DNA from: a virus
IMG/VR virus record: IMGVR_UViG_3300036785_000572
Location: 1-47,628 of that record
Length of the DNA stretch: 47,628 nucleotides
Reading direction: 5' to 3' (one strand)
Shown: positions 3,113 through 17,944 of the stretch, one piece after another
How the letters are laid out: each line of letters opens with the position of its first letter
Numbering within the stretch: position 1 is the first letter of the stretch
Translations under genes and position numbers: made by a program
The notes under the pieces: model-generated
What the model was told of the DNA's origin: nothing
What the model saw: the letters and a program-made list of their open reading frames with translations, nothing else
Database searches by the model: none

Positions 3113-3141
3113 TTGCGGTATACCGCAGGATGCGGTATGAT
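3113..3141 (+). promoter_or_regulatory. Early promoter overlapped by a palindromic operator
   Basis: A -35-like TTGCGG (3113-3118) is followed after 17 bases by TATGAT (3136-3141). The perfect palindrome TGCGGTATACCGCA (3114-3127) covers the -35 box. A third TGCGGTAT half-site (3131-3138) covers the -10. This is a classic repressible promoter layout, reading into the small plus-strand genes from 3206. Confidence 0.6.
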
Positions 3142-3205
3142 GCGTATGGTGACCGCGGGGTCTGATACACCCTGCGGCCACCTGAGCCACGACAAGGAGC
3201 AAGCC

Positions 3206-3334
3206 ATGTCGCAACCCATCGATGACCATACACCACGTTTTCCTGAACGAACCGCATCTGCCGTTTTGTCGGCGGTGACGCTGTTGCTGGTGCTGGCGAG
3301 CATCGTCACGCTGATGGCGGCGCTATCGTCATGA
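3206..3334 (+). CDS. Small single-pass membrane protein
   Basis: 42 aa. A polar N-terminus (MSQPIDDHTPRFPERT) is followed by one membrane segment (AVLSAVTLLLVLASIVTLMAAL). The start is fixed by AAGGAG 6 bases upstream of ATG 3206. It is the first gene behind the palindromic early promoter. Function unknown; small inner-membrane proteins in this position may act on host physiology or exclusion. Confidence 0.65.
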   Translation: MSQPIDDHTPRFPERTASAVLSAVTLLLVLASIVTLMAALSS

Positions 3335-3386
3335 CCCCCAGCAGGGGCCGGGGAGGTGCCCCGGCCCCTCGTCGAACCGGAGCACA

Positions 3387-3572
3387 ATGGTGACAGCCAA
3401 CCAGTACCGCGTCGCCTGCGAGCGCCTCGACATCTCGATCCGCAAGAGCGCCAAGGTGCTCGGCATCCACGAGGACACCGCCTACCGCTACGCCAGGGGC
3501 AATACGCCCATTCCCGAGCCGGTCGCCATCGCGCTGCGCGCCATGGTGAGGCTCGGCACCATCGATATCTGA
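3387..3572 (+). CDS. Small HTH DNA-binding protein
   Basis: 61 aa, essentially a single helix-turn-helix: RKSAKVLGIHEDTAYRYARGNTPIP resembles the recognition part of Cro/XRE-like domains. ATG 3387 is preceded by GGAG at 4 bases. It may bind the palindromic operator upstream of its own operon (TGCGGTATACCGCA); that is inference from position only. Confidence 0.65.
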   Translation: MVTANQYRVACERLDISIRKSAKVLGIHEDTAYRYARGNTPIPEPVAIALRAMVRLGTIDI

Positions 3573-3593
3573 CCTCTGACCTGGAGCACCACG

Positions 3594-3770
3594 ATGCCGC
3601 AACTCATCCTCGCGTTCATCCTCTACACCAGCGCCGTTCTGTTTATCGTCGGCGTCCTCGCCGGCCTCCACCAGCTCGTTGCCATCGTCACGCTGATCAT
3701 GGTGTTCGCCGGCGCCGGCCTGCTGCTCGTTAAAATGGCAGGTCCGCTGCCGCCGGCAGGCCAGCGATAA
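3594..3770 (+). CDS. Small two-pass membrane protein
   Basis: 58 aa with two hydrophobic segments (LILAFILYTSAVLFIVGVLAGL and LVAIVTLIMVFAGAGLLLV) joined by a short HQ-containing loop, and a Pro-rich C-terminus. TGGAG lies 7 bases before ATG 3594. Size and topology are holin-like, but the lysis genes lie elsewhere (18353-20720), so an accessory membrane role is as likely. Confidence 0.6.
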   Translation: MPQLILAFILYTSAVLFIVGVLAGLHQLVAIVTLIMVFAGAGLLLVKMAGPLPPAGQR

Positions 3771-3798
3771 GCAGCATCTATATCTGAAGAAGACACGA

Positions 3799-3891
3799 AT
3801 GAGCCTGACGCCGGAACAGCGCGCCATCGCCGTCCGCCTCGGCGACCTGTCGCGGATACGCTGTGAGGGAAGAGACAATGACCGAAGATGA
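3799..3891 (+). CDS. 30-aa possible peptide
   Basis: A very short frame starting MSLTPEQRAIAVRLGDLSR with an AAGAAG sequence upstream. It overlaps the start of the next gene by 14 bases. The first 19 residues look protein-like and the rest less so. It may be a leader peptide coupling to the coiled-coil gene at 3878. Confidence 0.3.
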   Translation: MSLTPEQRAIAVRLGDLSRIRCEGRDNDRR

Positions 3892-4147
3892 GTTGCGCGC
3901 CGTTCTGCGTGCCGAACTCGCGCCAATCAGGGCGCAGCTCGACGGATTGCCGATCATCAACCGGTCGCTGGTCGTGCTGCAGCAGGACATGCGCTCGCTC
4001 AAGGCCGCCTTCAACGACTTTGCCCTCACCAACGTGACGGCGGGCGAGGTCGAGGCGCTCCATGCCGACGTCAACCGCGTGCAGGCAGACAATGCCGCGC
4101 TGGAAGCACGCCTCGCCACGCTCGAACGGCTCATCTCGGAGCGGTGA
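3878..4147 (+). CDS. Small coiled-coil protein
   Basis: 89 aa from ATG 3878 (GGGAAGAG upstream). It is nearly all helical with heptad-like spacing of Leu/Val/Ala (EVEALHADVNRVQADNAALEARLATLERLI). No enzyme motif. It lies in a run of small plus-strand genes. Confidence 0.6.
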   Translation: MTEDELRAVLRAELAPIRAQLDGLPIINRSLVVLQQDMRSLKAAFNDFALTNVTAGEVEALHADVNRVQADNAALEARLATLERLISER

Positions 4148-4184
4148 TCATGTCAGTCGTCGCCCTCGTTAAGGCTTGTGCATC

Positions 4185-4343
4185 ATGAGCGCGATCACGC
4201 GGCGGCTGCGCGAGGACAACGAAGCACTGCGCAAGCGCGTCGCTGAGCTGGAGGTCGCCTATCTCGATCTCGTCGCGGTGCGCATCGACGAGCTGGCCGC
4301 GGCGATCCTTCACCGCGCCAGCGTGGCACGGAAACTGCCATGA
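4185..4343 (+). CDS. 52-aa helical protein
   Basis: A short frame starting MSAITRRLREDNEALRKRVAELEVAY, a leucine-zipper-like helix, followed by a second helix. It sits in line with the coiled-coil genes on both sides. The ribosome site is weak, so confidence is moderate. Confidence 0.45.
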   Translation: MSAITRRLREDNEALRKRVAELEVAYLDLVAVRIDELAAAILHRASVARKLP

Positions 4344-4399
4344 CCTACATGTGCACCACGCACCGGCATTGACCATCTGACAAGGAAAGGGCGGCAGTC

Positions 4400-5017
4400 A
4401 TGAGCTTACATAAGGACGTAGACCGCGCACATAAACGATCGGCTGAATTGGCGGAAATGACCGATCAGGAACGCATCACCCGCCTCCGCTCCGAACTCGC
4501 CGAGGCCAATCGACAATCCCCTGGAGACGCGCAGTGCCATGTAACACGACTACTTGCCCGCGCCGAGAAAGCCGAAGCCCGCATTGTGGAGTTGGAGACG
4601 CTTAAGAGCACAATAGCCGACGTTTCGTGCCCTAAAGAGCACCTAGACTGGATGTGGTGTTTCAATAATTCCCATGCGGCTGCTGCGCGCATTGCGGAGT
4701 TGGAAAGCCAGAACGCGCAGATGTTCAATACAATCTGTGTCGAGCGCAATACCGTCGCCGGCCGGGACCGGCAGATTGCGGATGAATTCGCGCGAGGATT
4801 TGCTCTTGCCGAAGAGACGTATGCAAGGGGCATCACCGACCGGGACCGGCAGATAGCGGCGCTGCTAGATTTGCTGAAAACAATCGAGATTGAGATTGGC
4901 GAAGGAACGTCCAAAGGACGCGCTATCGATTTGCTGCCGCGAACGACTGTTCAGCGAATCCGCACCGCCCTCCATGCTTCGACAAGCGCTCAGCAGGACA
5001 AGCCGGTGCAGCCATGA
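4400..5017 (+). CDS. Coiled-coil phage protein with internal repeat
   Basis: 205 aa, strongly coiled-coil throughout. An internal duplication is visible: the segment around residues 118-125 (AGRDRQIA) recurs near residues 145-152 (TDRDRQIA), and the DNA shares ccgggaccggcagat. A central HLDWMWCFNNSHAAAARIAELE patch breaks the coil. It starts at ATG 4400, with AAGGAAAGG upstream, and overlaps the next gene by 4 bases. GC is a little lower than its neighbours. Function unknown. Confidence 0.6.
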   Translation: MSLHKDVDRAHKRSAELAEMTDQERITRLRSELAEANRQSPGDAQCHVTRLLARAEKAEARIVELETLKSTIADVSCPKEHLDWMWCFNNSHAAAARIAELESQNAQMFNTICVERNTVAGRDRQIADEFARGFALAEETYARGITDRDRQIAALLDLLKTIEIEIGEGTSKGRAIDLLPRTTVQRIRTALHASTSAQQDKPVQP

Positions 5018-9172: not shown

Positions 9173-10195
9173 TTATTTACGAGATAGCAACTTGAACGGT
9201 ACGACTTTTCCTTTAGGGGCGAGTTTCTTGCGCCAGCTGGGAGCAACGTGCTCACCCAACTCTGCCAGTGCGAAGTCGATCTTCCGCAATGCTGCGGCAT
9301 CCTCCTCCGTTTCCAGCTTGGGAAGAACCTTCACGATCTCAGCAAGCTTTTCCGCAGCCGCGTCGGTAGTGAGCATCTTGGAGATGCTGTCTGCCACGGC
9401 CTCGCCGAACATAGCGAACAGCGGGGACTTGCTCGTTGAGCCCTGCGTTGATTTGTAGGCCTCAAAATCAACCTGTCCCCGCAAATTGCCGATGCCAAGG
9501 CCAGGTTTATTTTTGCGAAAATCTTTGGCGACGCGCTTAGCGCCCTTACCGATATGCTTCTTGGCCCTCTCGATCTCACCAGGCGGCCGTTGGGTTTTCT
9601 TCCCAAGCGCCTCAACTTGCTCCATGCGGGCTTGAGCGCGTGTTACGATTTCTCGAACCGCTTTTACTGATAGCTCACGCAAATCCGACTTATCTAGATA
9701 ACCGGCCTCAATAAGATTATGGCCGGCACTACAAGCTGCAGCAGTCGCATTTGCATGTTGGTTGTTATCGTGAACCCAACCAAGAAGCCTAGCAATTTCT
9801 ATGGGCTTATGCGATTTGGGATCCGCGGCCCCCAAGAATGACGTGCCCGCCTCCCACGTTTCCAACATGCATAAAAAGTCGGCGTTGTAATCCTCCATAT
9901 TTTCACGACCCATATACTGCAACATTTTCTCATCATTAAGGTCCTGCATGATGAGCATCACTCGCTTTATCTTGTTCTGTCGAGCCGCCTCGATGCGATG
10001 ATGTCCGAAGGCAATCTGAAACCGGTTGCCGGCTCGGCGAGCGATTACGCCCGGCCACATGCCTACATCATCGAACGATCGCCTTAGGGCCTCGATCTTG
10101 CTCTCGACGAATGGATAGTCCTTGAGCAGTCGATACGGGTTCGCATCGATTGCGGTGATCTCAGCGTCGAGTATTTCATTGCCCTGTTTCATCAT
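9173..10195 (-). CDS. ParB/Srx-domain protein
   Basis: 340 aa. The N-terminal 120 residues carry the ParB-type core: IDANPYR near residue 15, then GVIARR and the FGHHRIEAARQ box where ParB-family proteins bind CTP or cut DNA. A helical middle has HTH character, and a basic C-terminal half follows. Start ATG 10195 has AGGAG 5 bases before it. No ParA lies nearby, so a partition role is not supported. Phage ParB-like proteins also act as nucleases, transcription regulators or methylation partners. GC is lower than the flanking genes, suggesting separate acquisition. Confidence 0.75.
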   Translation of the reverse strand: MMKQGNEILDAEITAIDANPYRLLKDYPFVESKIEALRRSFDDVGMWPGVIARRAGNRFQIAFGHHRIEAARQNKIKRVMLIMQDLNDEKMLQYMGRENMEDYNADFLCMLETWEAGTSFLGAADPKSHKPIEIARLLGWVHDNNQHANATAAACSAGHNLIEAGYLDKSDLRELSVKAVREIVTRAQARMEQVEALGKKTQRPPGEIERAKKHIGKGAKRVAKDFRKNKPGLGIGNLRGQVDFEAYKSTQGSTSKSPLFAMFGEAVADSISKMLTTDAAAEKLAEIVKVLPKLETEEDAAALRKIDFALAELGEHVAPSWRKKLAPKGKVVPFKLLSRK

Positions 10196-10209
10196 TGCTC
10201 TCCTGGTTG

Positions 10210-10626
10210 TCACAGCCTCTCGATCCGCACGGCGAGCCCGGGTGTTTCGCCGAAAAATTTATGCACCGTGGCATCGGCGATCTGGGCGTCGTCGCGCCAT
10301 GCGATCTTGTTGAGCGCGTCGCCGACGATCTTGCCGATGTTGTCGTAGTCGGGCTTGGTCCAGCGCCAGCGGTTGGCGTCGCGCTTCTTCTGCGACCACG
10401 CCCGCGGCCACGGATAGCAGGCGAGCAGCGTGAGCTTGATCGGCCCTTCGAGCGGCGGCGCGCCCTTCATCGCGGTCGAGCAGATCAGCTTGAGCGCGGT
10501 CATGTAGTTCGCTTGTTTCGATGGCGTGTAGTGCGGTACGGTCTTGCCGCCGCGGGCGCGCGCCCACGGGACCAGCTCGCCGGGCACGACGAACTCGATC
10601 GCCGCGGTGGTGGCTGAGGTCAGCAT
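10210..10626 (-). CDS. rusA: RusA-family Holliday junction resolvase
   Basis: 138 aa from ATG 10626 (GGAGG upstream). It shows the RusA pattern: FVVPGELVPWARAR near residue 12, then KPDYDNIGKIVGDALNKIAWRDDAQI with the acidic residues D93, D95 and D112/D113 that form the metal site. It cuts four-way junctions made during phage recombination or replication. It lies in the lytic minus-strand operon, while Exo and Bet are in the opposite operon. Confidence 0.9.
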   Translation of the reverse strand: MLTSATTAAIEFVVPGELVPWARARGGKTVPHYTPSKQANYMTALKLICSTAMKGAPPLEGPIKLTLLACYPWPRAWSQKKRDANRWRWTKPDYDNIGKIVGDALNKIAWRDDAQIADATVHKFFGETPGLAVRIERL

Positions 10627-13591: not shown

Positions 13592-14512
13592 ATGACCAAG
13601 GTTGTCGCCGTTCCGCAAGGCACGAAGGCGGTTGCCTTCAGCACCGAACAGGTCGACCTGATCAAGCGAACGATCTGCAAGGGCGCGACCAACGACGAGC
13701 TGCAGTTGTTCATGCATCAGGCCGAACGCACCGGTCTAGATCCGCTGTCGCGGCAGATATACGCCGTCAAGCGGTGGGACGGTCAGCAGCGGCGCGAGGT
13801 CATGTCGATCCAGGTTTCGATCGACGGCTTACGTCTGATCGCCGAGCGAACCGGAAAATATAGAGGTCAGGTTGGCCCGCTCTGGTGCGGTTCCGATGGC
13901 GAGTGGTGCGACGTCTGGGTATCGGACGCGCTTCCTGCCGCAGCCAAGGTCGGCGTTCTGCGGTCGGACTTCACCGAGCCGTGCTGGGGCATCGCGCGCT
14001 TCTCCTCCTACGCACAGCGAAACAAGGAGGGCTTCCCAACTCGAATGTGGGCGACGATGCCCGACGTCATGACCGCCAAGTGCGCGGAGGCCCTAGCGCT
14101 GCGCAAGGCATTTCCGCAAGAGTTGTCCGGCCTCTACACGACCGATGAGATGGCACAGGCCGCCGCAGCACCGTCGGAACCAAGGCGCCCACCGCCACCG
14201 GCGCCCAACGTGATGGAGCCGCACGACCCCGAGACCGGAGAGATCGTCGACGACAGTTCGCCGCCGGCCCAAGTACCAAACTCGTCGACGGCGGCGACGA
14301 CCGCTCCGCCACCTCAGTTCCACGCCGAGGATGGCGGGGCGGTCCCTGACGAGCACGAGCTGACGCTCGACGAGGAGGCGCGCATGGCGGCGAGCCACGG
14401 TCGCGCAGCGTTCGAGGTGCTGTGGAAGCGGCTCAATTACGACGAGCGCAGGTCGCTCAACCCGATCATGGACGAGCTGGGCACGCTGACGCGGGAGGCG
14501 GATGCAAAATGA
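13592..14512 (+). CDS. bet: Bet-type single-strand annealing protein
   Basis: 306 aa. Residues 18-180 match phage recombination protein Bet: [42 protein letters not shown], then [12 protein letters not shown] and [13 protein letters not shown]. It coats the 3' tails made by the YqaJ exonuclease and pairs them with complementary strands. The C-terminal 110 residues are Pro/Ala-rich and may contact host single-strand-binding protein. Its stop overlaps the ATG of the array-bearing gene. Confidence 0.9.
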
Positions 14513-15327
14513 CGATCATCAAGGATGCCATGCACCGCGCCGGCTTCGACCGCAAGAAGTTCGAGCTGCGTGTCGTGCTCAAGAACTTCCTGCTGGCCGG
14601 CGGAACATACGAGGACGTCATCGGCATCCTCGACGAGCTGCGGAGCGAGGGCCACAGGACGGCTGTCCAACAGGACCAGAACGCGATTGCCCCCGCTCCG
14701 CCCCCGCTGCCGCGCGAGGACCATGGGAGCCGTGCCGTCTTGGGCCATGAACCTGCTGTCGACGCGCGGCAACCCATCACCGGCGAGGGCCAAATCTCGA
14801 TTGTCCAGCAGAACCATGTCGTAGATGCCTCCGCCGGTGCCCTCGTTCCCGGTGCTGACCAACTTGGTGGTGTCCAGCAGGACCAAGTTCATGTTGTCGG
14901 CGCCGGGACACCTCTTCCGGGTGAAGGCCGGTCCACAGTTGTCGGAGACGACCACCGATCGAGTGCCGACACCCGGAAACCCATCACGGGCGGTGTGGCC
15001 ACCCCAGGTGCGCCTGCAAAGGCCAGTATACCTCCGCCGCCCGCCCGTGAGCCCGACGAGGCCTACAAGCGTGCCGTGGCGCGGTCGCGGGCCGAGACCG
15101 CCAAGGTGCAGCTGGAGCTGCGCAAGACCAGCAACGGCACACCGTGGGGCAGTGTGAAGCCATACGAGTTCGTCGGCATGGAGCGCGATGGCCACATCGC
15201 CTGGGCCATCCGCGAAACCTTCGGACCGTTCTCACCCAAACAGGAGCAGATGGAGCTGCGGCAGTTCCTGCCCGATGAAATCTTCAAGAGGGCGCTGACG
15301 CTCGCCGAGATCGATCATGTTCGCTGA
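14509..15327 (+). CDS. Two-domain protein split by a 23-residue repeat linker
   Basis: 272 aa. Residues 1-44 are a helical domain ([28 protein letters not shown]). Residues about 45-180 are repeats of 23 residues beginning VQQDQ/VQQNH. Residues 180-272 are a conserved helical domain ([49 protein letters not shown]). The linker repeats are better conserved in DNA than in protein and fold as six stem-loops (see the array feature). The terminal domains are of a type I associate with rhizobial phages, without known function. It is coupled to bet (ATGA) and overlaps the next frame by 11 bases. Confidence 0.7.
14641..15050 (+). repeat. Array A: six stem-loop modules, 69-base period
   Basis: Modules: S1 14641-14700, S2 14710-14769, S3 14779-14838, S4 14848-14907, S5 14917-14976, S6 14984-15050. 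Each has an outer stem of 7-15 bp, CA plus 10 variable bases, an apical hairpin (GTCC-AGCA-GGAC type) plus CA, 9 variable bases, and the closing stem. Outer stems change in pairs: CGGAGCG/CGCTCCG in S1, ACCGGCG/CGCCGGT in S3, CCCGGTGCTGAC/GTCGGCGCCGGG in S4. Apical pairs also change together: GTCC/GGAC, GCC/GGC (S2), GCCT/AGGC (S6). Likely a structured RNA inside a coding sequence. Confidence 0.85.
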
Positions 15328-15559
15328 GCTGCGGAGCGAGGGCCAGCCAGCGCCCGTCCAACAGGACCACGAGGAGTATGCCCCCGCTCCGCTCCCGATG
15401 CCGCGCGTCGACCACAAAATAATTGTCACCGCGACCACAGCCCCGATGTCGACGCGCGGCAACCCATCACCGGCGAGGGCCAGAAAAGGCGTGTCCAGCA
15501 GGACCAGCGTATTCGCGCCCCCGCCGGTGACCCGTTTCGGAGATGACGATGTCCGCTGA
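15317..15559 (+). pseudogene. Partial duplicate of the array-bearing gene, frame slipped
   Basis: 80 codons starting [10 protein letters not shown]. Bases from 15327 copy 14636 onward of the previous gene (GAGCTGCGGAGCGAGGGCCA is shared), giving three more modules and none of the conserved terminal domains. Module two has one base fewer than its counterpart, so later DNA (TGTCGACGCGCGGCAACCCA block) is read in a different frame. The unslipped frame would end in TGA at 15544-15546, overlapping ATG 15543. Either a decayed copy or DNA kept for its RNA rather than its protein. Confidence 0.6.
15332..15528 (+). ncRNA. Array B: three stem-loop modules, candidate guide-like RNA
   Basis: Modules S1' 15332-15391, S2' 15401-15459, S3' 15469-15528. 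S2' has a perfect 12-bp outer stem (CCGCGCGTCGAC with GTCGACGCGCGG) where its counterpart S2 has mismatches, and a GTC-accgc-GAC apex. The variable strands (gccagcgccc/cgaggagta, caaaataatt/cagccccga, gaaaaggcgt/gcgtattcg) differ completely from those of array A. It lies 20 bases before the IS110-like gene, the place where IS110 elements can encode their bridge RNA. RNA status is inferred from structure and covariation only. Confidence 0.5.
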
Positions 15560-16343
15560 ACTCATCGCCGACATCCGCGCCGCGCACCGCGAGCGTTGCT
15601 TCGCCATGGAGCAGCGCAAGCGTGCCGATCTCGCGCTCGGCGCCTTCCTGCGAATGATGCTCGGCTGGCGCAAGGACCTGCCCGACAAGGAGCGCAAGGC
15701 GATCGCCGACCGGGCGGCGCTGCTCATGGCCGGCAAGGAGCCGTGCGAGTGGACGGCGATCATCGACGCCTCGCGACAAGCCCGGGCGCCCTTCGAGGCC
15801 GTGGAAAAGGACCGGCTCAAACGGATGGAAAAACTCGCCGAGCAATTGCCGGTGTGGTCCGCGTTCGGCGACGCCGTCCGCGGCTTCGGCCCGGGCTCTC
15901 TTGCCGTCATCGTCGGCGAGGCCGGCGACCTCGCGCTCTACGCCAGCGACGCCAAGCTGTGGAAGCGCATGGGCCTCGCCGTCATCGATGGCGTGAGGCA
16001 GGGCGGGCTGCGAAGCAACGCCAGCAAGGAGGACTGGATTATGCACGGCTACAGTCCGGTGCGCCGCTCGCGGATGTGGAACATCGGCGACGCCATGATC
16101 AAGGGCAACCGCGACGGCGTGTATCGCGCGGCCTATCTGCGGCGCAAGGCCTACGAGCACGCGCGCGAGCCCGAGATGTCGAAGCTGCACGCGCACCGGC
16201 GGGCGCAGCGCTACATGGAAAAACGCCTGCTGCGCGATCTGTGGCGGGCGTGGCGGCGGACCACAGCATCAGTGGCAATGCCCATCGTTGATTTGTCCGC
16301 CGCCATCATTGAAAGGCCGGGGCAAGAGTTAACAAAGTGTTAA
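15549..16343 (+). CDS. IS110 C-terminal (Transposase_20)-like protein without RuvC domain
   Basis: 264 aa. Residues 1-100 are helical (FAMEQRKRADLALGAFLRMMLGW). Residues about 108-135 carry a helix-hairpin-helix of Transposase_20 type (VRGFGPGSLAVIVGEAGDLALYASDAKLWKRMGLAV). A GYSPVRRSRMWNIGDAMIK block and a helix HAHRRAQRYMEKRLLRDLWRAW follow, resembling the IS110 C-terminal domain. The N-terminal DEDD/RuvC-like domain of IS110 recombinases is absent. ATG 15549 has GGAG 6 bases upstream; 15543 is an alternative. It lies immediately downstream of array B, so it may bind those stem-loops. Assignment by motif memory; a search is needed to confirm. Confidence 0.6.
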   Translation: MSAELIADIRAAHRERCFAMEQRKRADLALGAFLRMMLGWRKDLPDKERKAIADRAALLMAGKEPCEWTAIIDASRQARAPFEAVEKDRLKRMEKLAEQLPVWSAFGDAVRGFGPGSLAVIVGEAGDLALYASDAKLWKRMGLAVIDGVRQGGLRSNASKEDWIMHGYSPVRRSRMWNIGDAMIKGNRDGVYRAAYLRRKAYEHAREPEMSKLHAHRRAQRYMEKRLLRDLWRAWRRTTASVAMPIVDLSAAIIERPGQELTKC

Positions 16344-16364
16344 TAATTATTTGGATATGCTAGA
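16326..16364 (+). promoter_or_regulatory. AT-rich probable promoter before integrase genes
   Basis: A sharply AT-rich gap (GTTAACAAAGTGTTAATAAT, then TATTTGGATATGCTAG) in a GC-rich region. TATGCT can serve as a -10 box close to the start of the excisionase-like gene. It may let integrase be expressed separately from the early operon. No clear -35. Confidence 0.4.
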
Positions 16365-16796
16365 ATGGCATCGCGGGAGCTTCCCCTCTACTGCACCGAA
16401 GAGCAGATCGCCGAGTTCGTCCTGGGCCCCGGCCGCCTGCGCGACTGGAAGGATCGCGTCAGGATGCTGGAGCGCATCGGCCTGCCGCAGTCTGATCCGG
16501 TGATGGGTGGCCGCTACCGGCCGGCTGTCGAGCGGTTCTTTCAGCGGCGCAACGGCCTCACCACAGAAGCGGCCCCGCGGGTGAAGCCTGATCAACCGGA
16601 AAAATGGAAAACCGAATGTCCAGAGTCACCGACCTCCACCGCGACCTCGCCCCCGGAGACGCCCCCGGCCTCGAGTGGCAGCCCCGAGCCAACGGCAAGC
16701 GTGTCCCATATTGGGTCGCACCGCGCGCTGCGAAGGCCAAAGGGTTCACCCCGAAAACCGTCAAGCTCGACGCCGACGCCACCCCGGTCGAGCTAG
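16365..16796 (+). CDS. Excisionase-like small winged-helix protein
   Basis: Residues 1-75 match the small DNA-binding proteins paired with integrases in alphaproteobacterial prophages: YCTEEQIAEFVLGPGRLRDWKDRVRMLERIGLPQSDPVMGGRYRPAVERFFQRR. The frame stays open to 143 aa, but the last 60 residues are Ser/Pro/Thr low complexity and overlap the integrase gene by 193 bases. That tail may be a recent readthrough after loss of the native stop. Likely directs excision or regulates integrase. Confidence 0.6.
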   Translation: MASRELPLYCTEEQIAEFVLGPGRLRDWKDRVRMLERIGLPQSDPVMGGRYRPAVERFFQRRNGLTTEAAPRVKPDQPEKWKTECPESPTSTATSPPETPPASSGSPEPTASVSHIGSHRALRRPKGSPRKPSSSTPTPPRSS

Positions 16797-17944
16797 CCGC
16801 GGCGTGCCGCCTGTGGCAGGCGGAGGCGCTGGAGTTCATCGCGCACGGCGCCAAGGATGATCGGGCCGCGTTCGACGGCACCCTGCGCTGGCTGATCAAC
16901 ACCTACCAGACCGACCGCATCTCGCCGTTCAACACCAATTGCAAATGGAACACTCAAGCTGTCCAGACCACCTACCTGCGTGTGCTCTCCGAGCAGATCG
17001 GCATGCGCCAGATCGCCGACGTCACCGGCGCCGACGTGCGCGACTGGTACGAGCATTTCCGTACACCCAAGCGGCCGGACGACCGCGAGCGCGTCGGCTA
17101 CTCCAACCAGCTGATGTCGACGCTGCGCGCGGTGCTCCGCTTCGGCATCATCTCTGAGCCGATGGCGCGCGAGGACTGCATCCGCCTCGCCGGCAAGGAG
17201 CAGGGCATCCTGTCGTTCATGCGGTTCGAGGTCGGCGAGGCTCGCACCACCGTCGTCACCGCCGACATGGTCGACGCCTTCCGCGCCGAGGCGCACCGCC
17301 AGGGCTACCCATCGATCGCGCTCGCGACCGCCATCCAGTTCGAGACGGCGCTGCGGCAGGCCGACGTCATCGGGCAGTGGGAGCCGCTCAAGCGCGGCGA
17401 GGTTTCCGCGCAGGAGACCGCCATGGTCCGGCACTATCACCGGTGGGTCGGCGGCCTGCTGTGGGGCGAGCATGTCAGCGCCGACCTCGTGATGATCAAG
17501 CCGACCTCGAAGTCGAAGTTCAAGAAGAAGGCAGTGTCGGACTGGACGCTGTGCCCGATGATCATGGAGGAGCTGGCGCACGTCCCGCCCGAGCAGCGCA
17601 TCGGGCCGATCGTCGTCCATTCCGGGCCGCACTTCGTCACCGGCCCGTGGCGCCGCCTCGCGTTCTGGCGGCGGTGGAAGGAGATCGCCGCCGCCTGTGA
17701 GAAGACCGACCCGCGATGGAAGGGCGTCCAGAGCATGGACATGCGGTCGGGTGCGATCACGGAGGCGACCGAGGGCGTCGACGCCGAGGGCATCGAGTTC
17801 GCCAACGTGCAGAAGGTGCTCGGCACCCACGCGGCGCGGCAGATGACACAGCGCTACGCCCGCGGCACGCTCGACAAAGCACGCGCCATCCAGAGCCGTC
17901 GGGTTGCAGTTCGTAATGCCACACCAAGCACCGCCAAAACGTAG
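16604..17944 (+). CDS. int: Tyrosine-family phage integrase
   Basis: 446 aa. A core-binding SAM-like domain lies at about residues 90-185. The catalytic domain follows: ETALRQADVIG with the first Arg near residue 250, a Lys/Trp-containing beta strand, MDMRSGA near 378 (box II with Asp for the usual His), GTHAARQMTQRY with the nucleophile Tyr near 416. It inserts and excises the phage at attP/attB. ATG 16616 (MSRVTDL) is an alternative start. The repeat-rich segment right after its stop is the likely attP. Confidence 0.88.
   Translation: MENRMSRVTDLHRDLAPGDAPGLEWQPRANGKRVPYWVAPRAAKAKGFTPKTVKLDADATPVELAAACRLWQAEALEFIAHGAKDDRAAFDGTLRWLINTYQTDRISPFNTNCKWNTQAVQTTYLRVLSEQIGMRQIADVTGADVRDWYEHFRTPKRPDDRERVGYSNQLMSTLRAVLRFGIISEPMAREDCIRLAGKEQGILSFMRFEVGEARTTVVTADMVDAFRAEAHRQGYPSIALATAIQFETALRQADVIGQWEPLKRGEVSAQETAMVRHYHRWVGGLLWGEHVSADLVMIKPTSKSKFKKKAVSDWTLCPMIMEELAHVPPEQRIGPIVVHSGPHFVTGPWRRLAFWRRWKEIAAACEKTDPRWKGVQSMDMRSGAITEATEGVDAEGIEFANVQKVLGTHAARQMTQRYARGTLDKARAIQSRRVAVRNATPSTAKT

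Follow-up and report, generated by a model that had tools for sequence, protein, structure and literature searches.

A TIGR-Tas guide cassette in a soil phage with a hairpin array that probably also encodes protein

The window analyzed here is the whole 47,628-nucleotide (nt) stretch of IMG/VR record IMGVR_UViG_3300036785_000572, a soil phage that, judging by its relatives, is probably a phage of Hyphomicrobiales. It carries tandem hairpin units around a tas gene, and sequence comparison makes this locus almost certainly a TIGR-Tas system. The explanation that best covers the locus as a whole, and in which we place high confidence, is a guide cassette of the TIGR-TasA type with an array that is in part protein-coding. 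While the locus is of a known TIGR-Tas kind, its new aspects are the in-frame array, the replacement of spacers, and the alternation of the cassette with VIPR, another phage RNA-guided system. On the level of sequence, the comparisons below show the identity of TasA, the anatomy of the units, stem covariation, in-frame embedding, spacer replacement, and a swap for VIPR among sister phages. The units and the tas gene are as follows.

14640-14701, plus strand: TIGR module S1; spacers CAGGACGGC and GAACGCGAT; fold z -4.35
14708-14771, plus strand: TIGR module S2; spacers TGGGAGCCG and TGAACCTGC; fold z -2.08
14778-14839, plus strand: TIGR module S3; spacers AATCTCGAT and TGTCGTAGA; fold z -3.81
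14847-14908, plus strand: TIGR module S4; spacers ACTTGGTGG and AGTTCATGT; fold z -4.83
14915-14978, plus strand: TIGR module S5; spacers GTCCACAGT and CCGATCGAG; first box C is CCG; fold z -4.66
14984-15050, plus strand: TIGR module S6; spacers CCCCAGGTG and GTATACCTC; box D is CG twice; fold z -4.13
15331-15392, plus strand: TIGR module S1'; spacers GCCAGCGCC and CGAGGAGTA; stem and linker as in S1; fold z -5.36
15399-15461, plus strand: TIGR module S2'; spacers CAAAATAAT and CAGCCCCGA; linker one base shorter than in S2; fold z -5.23
15467-15530, plus strand: TIGR module S3'; spacers GAAAAGGCG and GCGTATTCG; fold z -5.98
15543-16343, plus strand: tasA, a 266-amino-acid Tas protein with a Nop domain and no nuclease domain (profile, PDB, and fold matches)
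16250-16306, plus strand: tenth TIGR module, in the 3' coding end of tasA; spacers CAGCATCAG and TCGTTGATT; fold z -4.17

The protein encoded beside the array matched the NCBIfam profile TIGR_Tas NF052498 (E 3.4e-25, 89.3 bits) and, by sequence, PDB entry 9mty (TasR; E 7.6e-10). Its structure model (pLDDT 91.6) was almost all-helical, and Foldseek returned TasR 9mty as the best match (3.4e-07), followed by TasH and then by IS110 recombinases. A Pfam search at E 0.001 gave no match, and neither RuvC nor HNH was found fused to the Nop domain. Since the protein lacks a nuclease domain, we assigned it to TasA. The gene for this Nop-domain Tas protein adjoins the hairpins, as expected of a TIGR-Tas system.

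Each unit of the window array runs in the order stem, CCA, 9-nt spacer, UG or CG, linker hairpin, CCA, 9-nt spacer, UG or CG, stem. In TIGR guide RNAs, CCA is known as box C and UG as box D; the pattern occurs twice per unit in all ten units, with one CCG exception. Nine of these modules had been proposed in an earlier note on this DNA, and all nine are present. The layout described there stands, but its first variable strand of 10 bases is in fact a spacer of 9 nt, because the tenth base is the conserved pyrimidine (U/C) of box D, and the CA that it placed after the apical hairpin is part of the CCA preceding both spacers. That note mentioned neither the tas gene nor the reading frame around the array, and it lacked the tenth module. 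The tenth (motif core 16261-16295, stem of ~10 pairs) was returned together with the nine by a motif scanner for CCA-N9-[TC]G-linker-CCA-N9-[TC]G enclosed by a stem, which gave 0-1 units per strand on Markov-shuffled window sequence. RNA folding z scores ranged from -3.8 to -6.0 for nine of the ten modules, S2 being the exception at -2.1.

The outer stems of the window array are variable but palindromic and take the place of edge repeats. Covariation of the stems, also claimed earlier, was borne out by compensated pairs across orthologous modules: in a set of six orthologous units taken from positions upstream of tas in separate loci, four stem pairs were altered on both sides. The covariation score was 0.242, compared with 0.102 for shuffles, none of the 500 reaching it, and no sliding control exceeded 0.075. 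Between S1 and the orthologous unit of locus L052, two stem pairs show compensated changes. The apical stem of S2' differs from that of S2 yet still pairs, with the outer stem retained and the linker one base shorter. An Rfam scan of the window gave no match. In 227 unique modules the G+C content of spacers was 0.56, lower than that of stems (0.72) or of the loci (0.61).

We also surveyed 90 records with a tas gene, copies of one contig being counted. Within 2.5 kb of tas, 279 units lay on the tas strand vs 19 on the opposite strand, and unit density by tas was 0.59 per kb, compared with 0.04-0.05 elsewhere. Faure et al. 2025 (PMC12045711) reported arrays of stem-loops that bear box C/D motifs and surround TasA, as well as CCA/UG as the boxes of TIGR guides. 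Given the TasA matches and the box C/D units beside tas as in that report, we therefore identified the locus as a TIGR-Tas stem-loop array; the statement in the earlier note that no such tandem array had been described is superseded by the same report.

The array does not stand by itself: positions 14641-15050 belong to the open reading frame of a companion protein, whose parts are as follows.

14509-15327, plus strand: array-hosting companion protein, 272 amino acids; its ATG overlaps the recT stop (ATGA)
14512-14607, plus strand: N-terminal helical domain of the companion; profile match; helices 3-46, block pLDDT 72-94
15046-15303, plus strand: C-terminal domain of the companion; profile match, 73 records; block pLDDT mostly 91-97, residues 181-270

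Array 1 (S1-S6) is in frame between the two companion domains, and the linker it encodes is predicted to be disordered (pLDDT ~44-66), flanked by two well-predicted helical domains. The ends of this reading frame are homologous to those of the reading frame in L052, which itself has units in its middle. When profiles of both ends were iterated over all tas loci (E < 0.05), the C-terminal domain was found upstream of tas in 73 records (some of them copies of one contig), and the companion in most relatives. The N-terminal domain was found in 19 records, in all 19 within the same open frame as the C-terminal domain (16 non-redundant). In those 16 loci the array frame between the domains contained 0 stops in 1403 codons vs 81 in the other two sense frames. 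Embedded modules fell into the three phases as 35:8:0 (p 6e-11), with one phase preferred in 17 of 19 loci. Embedded loci also grouped in one region of the Tas tree (17 of 23 rows, support 97/90), and embedding changed 7 times on that tree vs 17.8 in shuffles. Together, these results give us strong grounds to think that in-frame embedding is under selection.

In the window's clade the array lies within the companion gene, and some clades have a compact companion (~180 amino acids) with the array between it and tas; in the survey as a whole, many arrays lie outside the companion gene. In 31 of the 90 tas genes (copies counted), a module reaches into the 3' end of the coding sequence. Spacers across all loci showed no stop avoidance in phase 0; coding constraint thus acts locally and does not explain why the units exist. 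Companion members gave no consistent family in Pfam, NCBIfam, or PHROG, and the companion fold had no PDB match below E 0.001; its profile matches were designed helical repeats and a few others, no more. The main text of PMC12045711 mentions a ParB-like companion alone and no array-hosting one. In loci L068 and L016, units lie within a stop-free N-terminal extension of tas. Across all loci, 91 of the 279 near units are in upstream stop-free extensions of this kind, so some arrays may be translated with Tas.

The second array (S1'-S3') copies S1-S3, and comparison of the copies separates scaffold from spacers. Outside the spacers, S1 and S1' are identical at 46 of 48 positions and S3 and S3' at 44 of 48, compared with 6 and 3 of 18 spacer positions, respectively; a direct reading of S2 and S2' gave 4 of 18. 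Pooled over the three pairs, 13 of 54 spacer positions are alike, which is the chance level, while 92-98% of stem and linker is kept. Two units of locus L037 show the same (45/46 vs 1/18). In bins of 80-95% scaffold identity, mean spacer identity was 0.28-0.36 vs a background of 0.26. Intermediates were rare, which suggests that spacers are replaced whole on a kept scaffold rather than changed by drift. RecE- and RecT-like genes adjoin the cassette; a link between them and spacer replacement would be speculation, since recT is a shared flank.

The flank and the slot occupied by the cassette were defined by comparison with sister phages.

13592-14512, plus strand: recT, left flank of the slot, common to sister phages (phrog_2780, E 1.2e-71)
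14506-16328: exchange slot, absent or replaced in close sister phages (DNA comparison)

DNA similarity to the sisters stops at ~14506 and restarts at ~16328, which are the ends of the companion-array-tasA cassette. Two sisters, G001 and G003, have a capsid protein 99-100% identical to that of the window yet no tas gene, and a RecT relative, G032, also lacks tas. The slot in G001 and G003 instead encodes a PHROG 4652 protein (E about 1e-15), that of G001 matching SUSP1 Vipr at E 1.2e-4, and both slots hold arrays of 5-nt periodicity; the guide code of VIPR is GGY/NN pentamers (PMC13142463, 2026 preprint). Given this VIPR-like content of the same slot, TIGR-TasA and VIPR therefore alternate at one locus. 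Outside G001 and G003, the PHROG 4652/Vipr protein was absent from all 37 further records searched, among them the window. Since VIPR is reported to repress competing phages (PMC13142463), the exchange is the best current hint to the role of TasA here. With a 1-nt skip rule, matches of the sister-phage VIPR guides to the collected loci were not clearly above shuffles. Taken as a whole, it is likely that in a TIGR-TasA clade of alphaproteobacterial phages the guide array is at the same time protein-coding, with units often running into the 3' end of tasA, a reading frame that survives spacer replacement, and a cassette swapped with VIPR.

We propose a horizontally mobile TIGR-Tas cassette of the nuclease-less TasA stem-loop-array type, resident in a temperate-type phage. 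It would be transcribed as one RNA with at least ten hairpin units, each with two 9-nt spacers, and each spacer preceded by box C (CCA) and followed by box D (UG). Every unit would be excised as its own tigRNA and taken up by a dimer of TasA; by analogy with published work on TasR and TasH, one of its spacers would pair with each strand of a single DNA site. A guide function on DNA is highly probable. Lacking a nuclease, TasA would bind, bend, and block the site, the most likely outcome being the silencing of competing mobile-element or host genes; on balance we lean towards action against competing elements. Because array 1 also encodes the disordered linker of the companion, guide precursor and messenger RNA would there be one molecule.

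Several results weigh against this proposal. The 89.3 bits of the window TasA fall just below the NCBIfam cut-off of 100, which homologue L006 passes with 123.5, and neither a sigma-70-like promoter nor a terminator was detected at the locus. Targets were sought as SpacerA, 0-2 bp, and the reverse complement of SpacerB, a rule derived from the 8-nt 3' overhang and the C-5 rule of PMC12045711. We searched 1.66 and 2.46 Mb of phage and prophage DNA for all unique spacer pairs, allowing several orientations and gaps of -4 to 12, and matches showed no excess over permuted pairs. Three exact IMG/VR pattern scans gave 1-4 matches each, in unrelated, AT-richer contigs and chance-like. As no targets were found, the function is one that we infer.

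What the guides act on could be read differently. TasA and its guides might serve the phage's own biology, by helping an integrase or regulating the phage's own genes, as a TasA-integrase role suggested in PMC12045711 and the integrase-like (by eye) reading frame directly downstream at 16604-17944 would allow. We consider this unlikely, because no two-spacer site for the window guides occurs within the window at up to 2 mismatches, sisters with the same downstream reading frame lack tas, and fast spacer replacement is unlike a fixed self-target. It is very unlikely that the guides act on RNA in the manner of box C/D snoRNAs, despite a shared Nop domain, the box C/D logic, and units that resemble snoRNAs (PMC12045711): characterized Tas proteins act on DNA, TasR is inactive on RNA (PMC12045711), and a methyltransferase-like partner was not seen in the cassette.

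The nature of the repeats also admits other readings. Were they purely protein-coding, a low-complexity linker with a palindromic look arising by chance, then the in-frame position of array 1 within a conserved gene would be expected, as would the preferred phase of the modules. This is highly improbable and was rejected, given the compensatory stem changes, the many arrays outside the companion gene, and the 279 same-strand units beside tas; moreover, spacers do not avoid phase-0 stops across all loci, and S2', one base shorter, keeps its fold though the frame shifts. The earlier note had likened the loops to the target and donor loops of IS110 bridge RNAs, which belong to transposons. That layout of two facing variable strands beneath a hairpin holds, as does homology: IS110 structures are the next fold matches, and the PHROG label of the adjacent protein is 'transposase'. 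Membership in IS110 is, however, least probable of all and is refuted by the protein, which is almost all helical, has no DEDD/RuvC catalytic or Tnp domain, and matches TasR and TasH best. In IS110 a single RNA at the end of the element carries both the target loop and the donor loop, whereas here ten separate one-loop units lie in series, each with the TIGR box C/D pattern. CRISPR, which has constant direct repeats, single long spacers, and Cas proteins, was rejected as well: each unit here has two 9-nt spacers and variable stems, the cassette has a tas gene, and of its proteins that were tested none matched cas.

Compared with known systems, the locus is closest to the TIGR-Tas stem-loop/TasA type (PMC12045711), sharing the Nop-domain Tas protein, tandem hairpins in sub-arrays around tas, two spacers per unit (8-12 nt in that type) between boxes C and D, and variable palindromic outer stems; it differs in that array 1 is nested in a companion gene and units reach the 3' coding end of tasA. 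It shares CCA/UG boxes and 9-nt spacers with the dual-repeat arrays of TasR and TasH, but its units have their own outer stems instead of a constant edge repeat, and its protein has no nuclease domain. It is a relative of the IS110 bridge RNA (IS621, ISCro4) and not one: both have two guide strands in an internal loop under a hairpin and a related RNA-binding domain, but the window has many units, no donor/target loop pair, and no transposase catalytic domain. VIPR (PMC13142463) is likewise a small phage RNA-guided system, and two sister phages carry it in the slot that the cassette occupies here, but it has an unrelated (RAMP) protein and a different guide code. Three questions about TIGR-Tas become testable at this locus, namely the role of nuclease-less TasA, the acquisition of spacers, and the production of pre-tigRNA. 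The VIPR swap in otherwise near-identical phages points to a part in mobile-element conflict. If the guide array is indeed translated, ribosomes and guide processing would share one RNA, and guide arrays may lie hidden among the repeat-rich 'hypothetical proteins' of phages.

As for the surroundings of the cassette, a search for the window's RecT, RecE, ParB-like, TerL, and downstream proteins near other tas loci gave one weak RecT match only, and the cassette therefore moves between unrelated phages. An IMG/VR scan for near-identical S1 linkers returned 15 records, L127 (on the L052 contig) being the only real match. The VIPR-like loci lie at 3130-5000, minus strand, of L207 (G001:34500-42500) and at 10314-12200 of L209 (G003:29200-46234), the G001 array having 11 repeat-tailed units marked by CAGGCGACAGCC. 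The slot in G032 (L210, G032:13000-20000) holds two DNA adenine methyltransferase-like reading frames and one ParB-like reading frame (by eye). At the right edge of the slot (16329-16360), a near-palindrome conserved in sister phages, TTAACAAAGTGTTAATAATTATTTGG, provides the final codons (LTKC stop) not only for tasA but also for open frames in the two sisters. A ParB-like protein is encoded at 9176-10213, minus strand, ~5 kb upstream of the array and on the opposite strand; ParB-like genes are reported beside other TasA systems (PMC12045711). The 446-amino-acid product of 16604-17944 is tyrosine-recombinase-like by eye, with no match in Pfam, PHROG, or NCBIfam. Finally, two tas loci (L027, L028) lie at a distance of 63 kb on one Rhodoplanes elegans contig, with matching module positions around tas.
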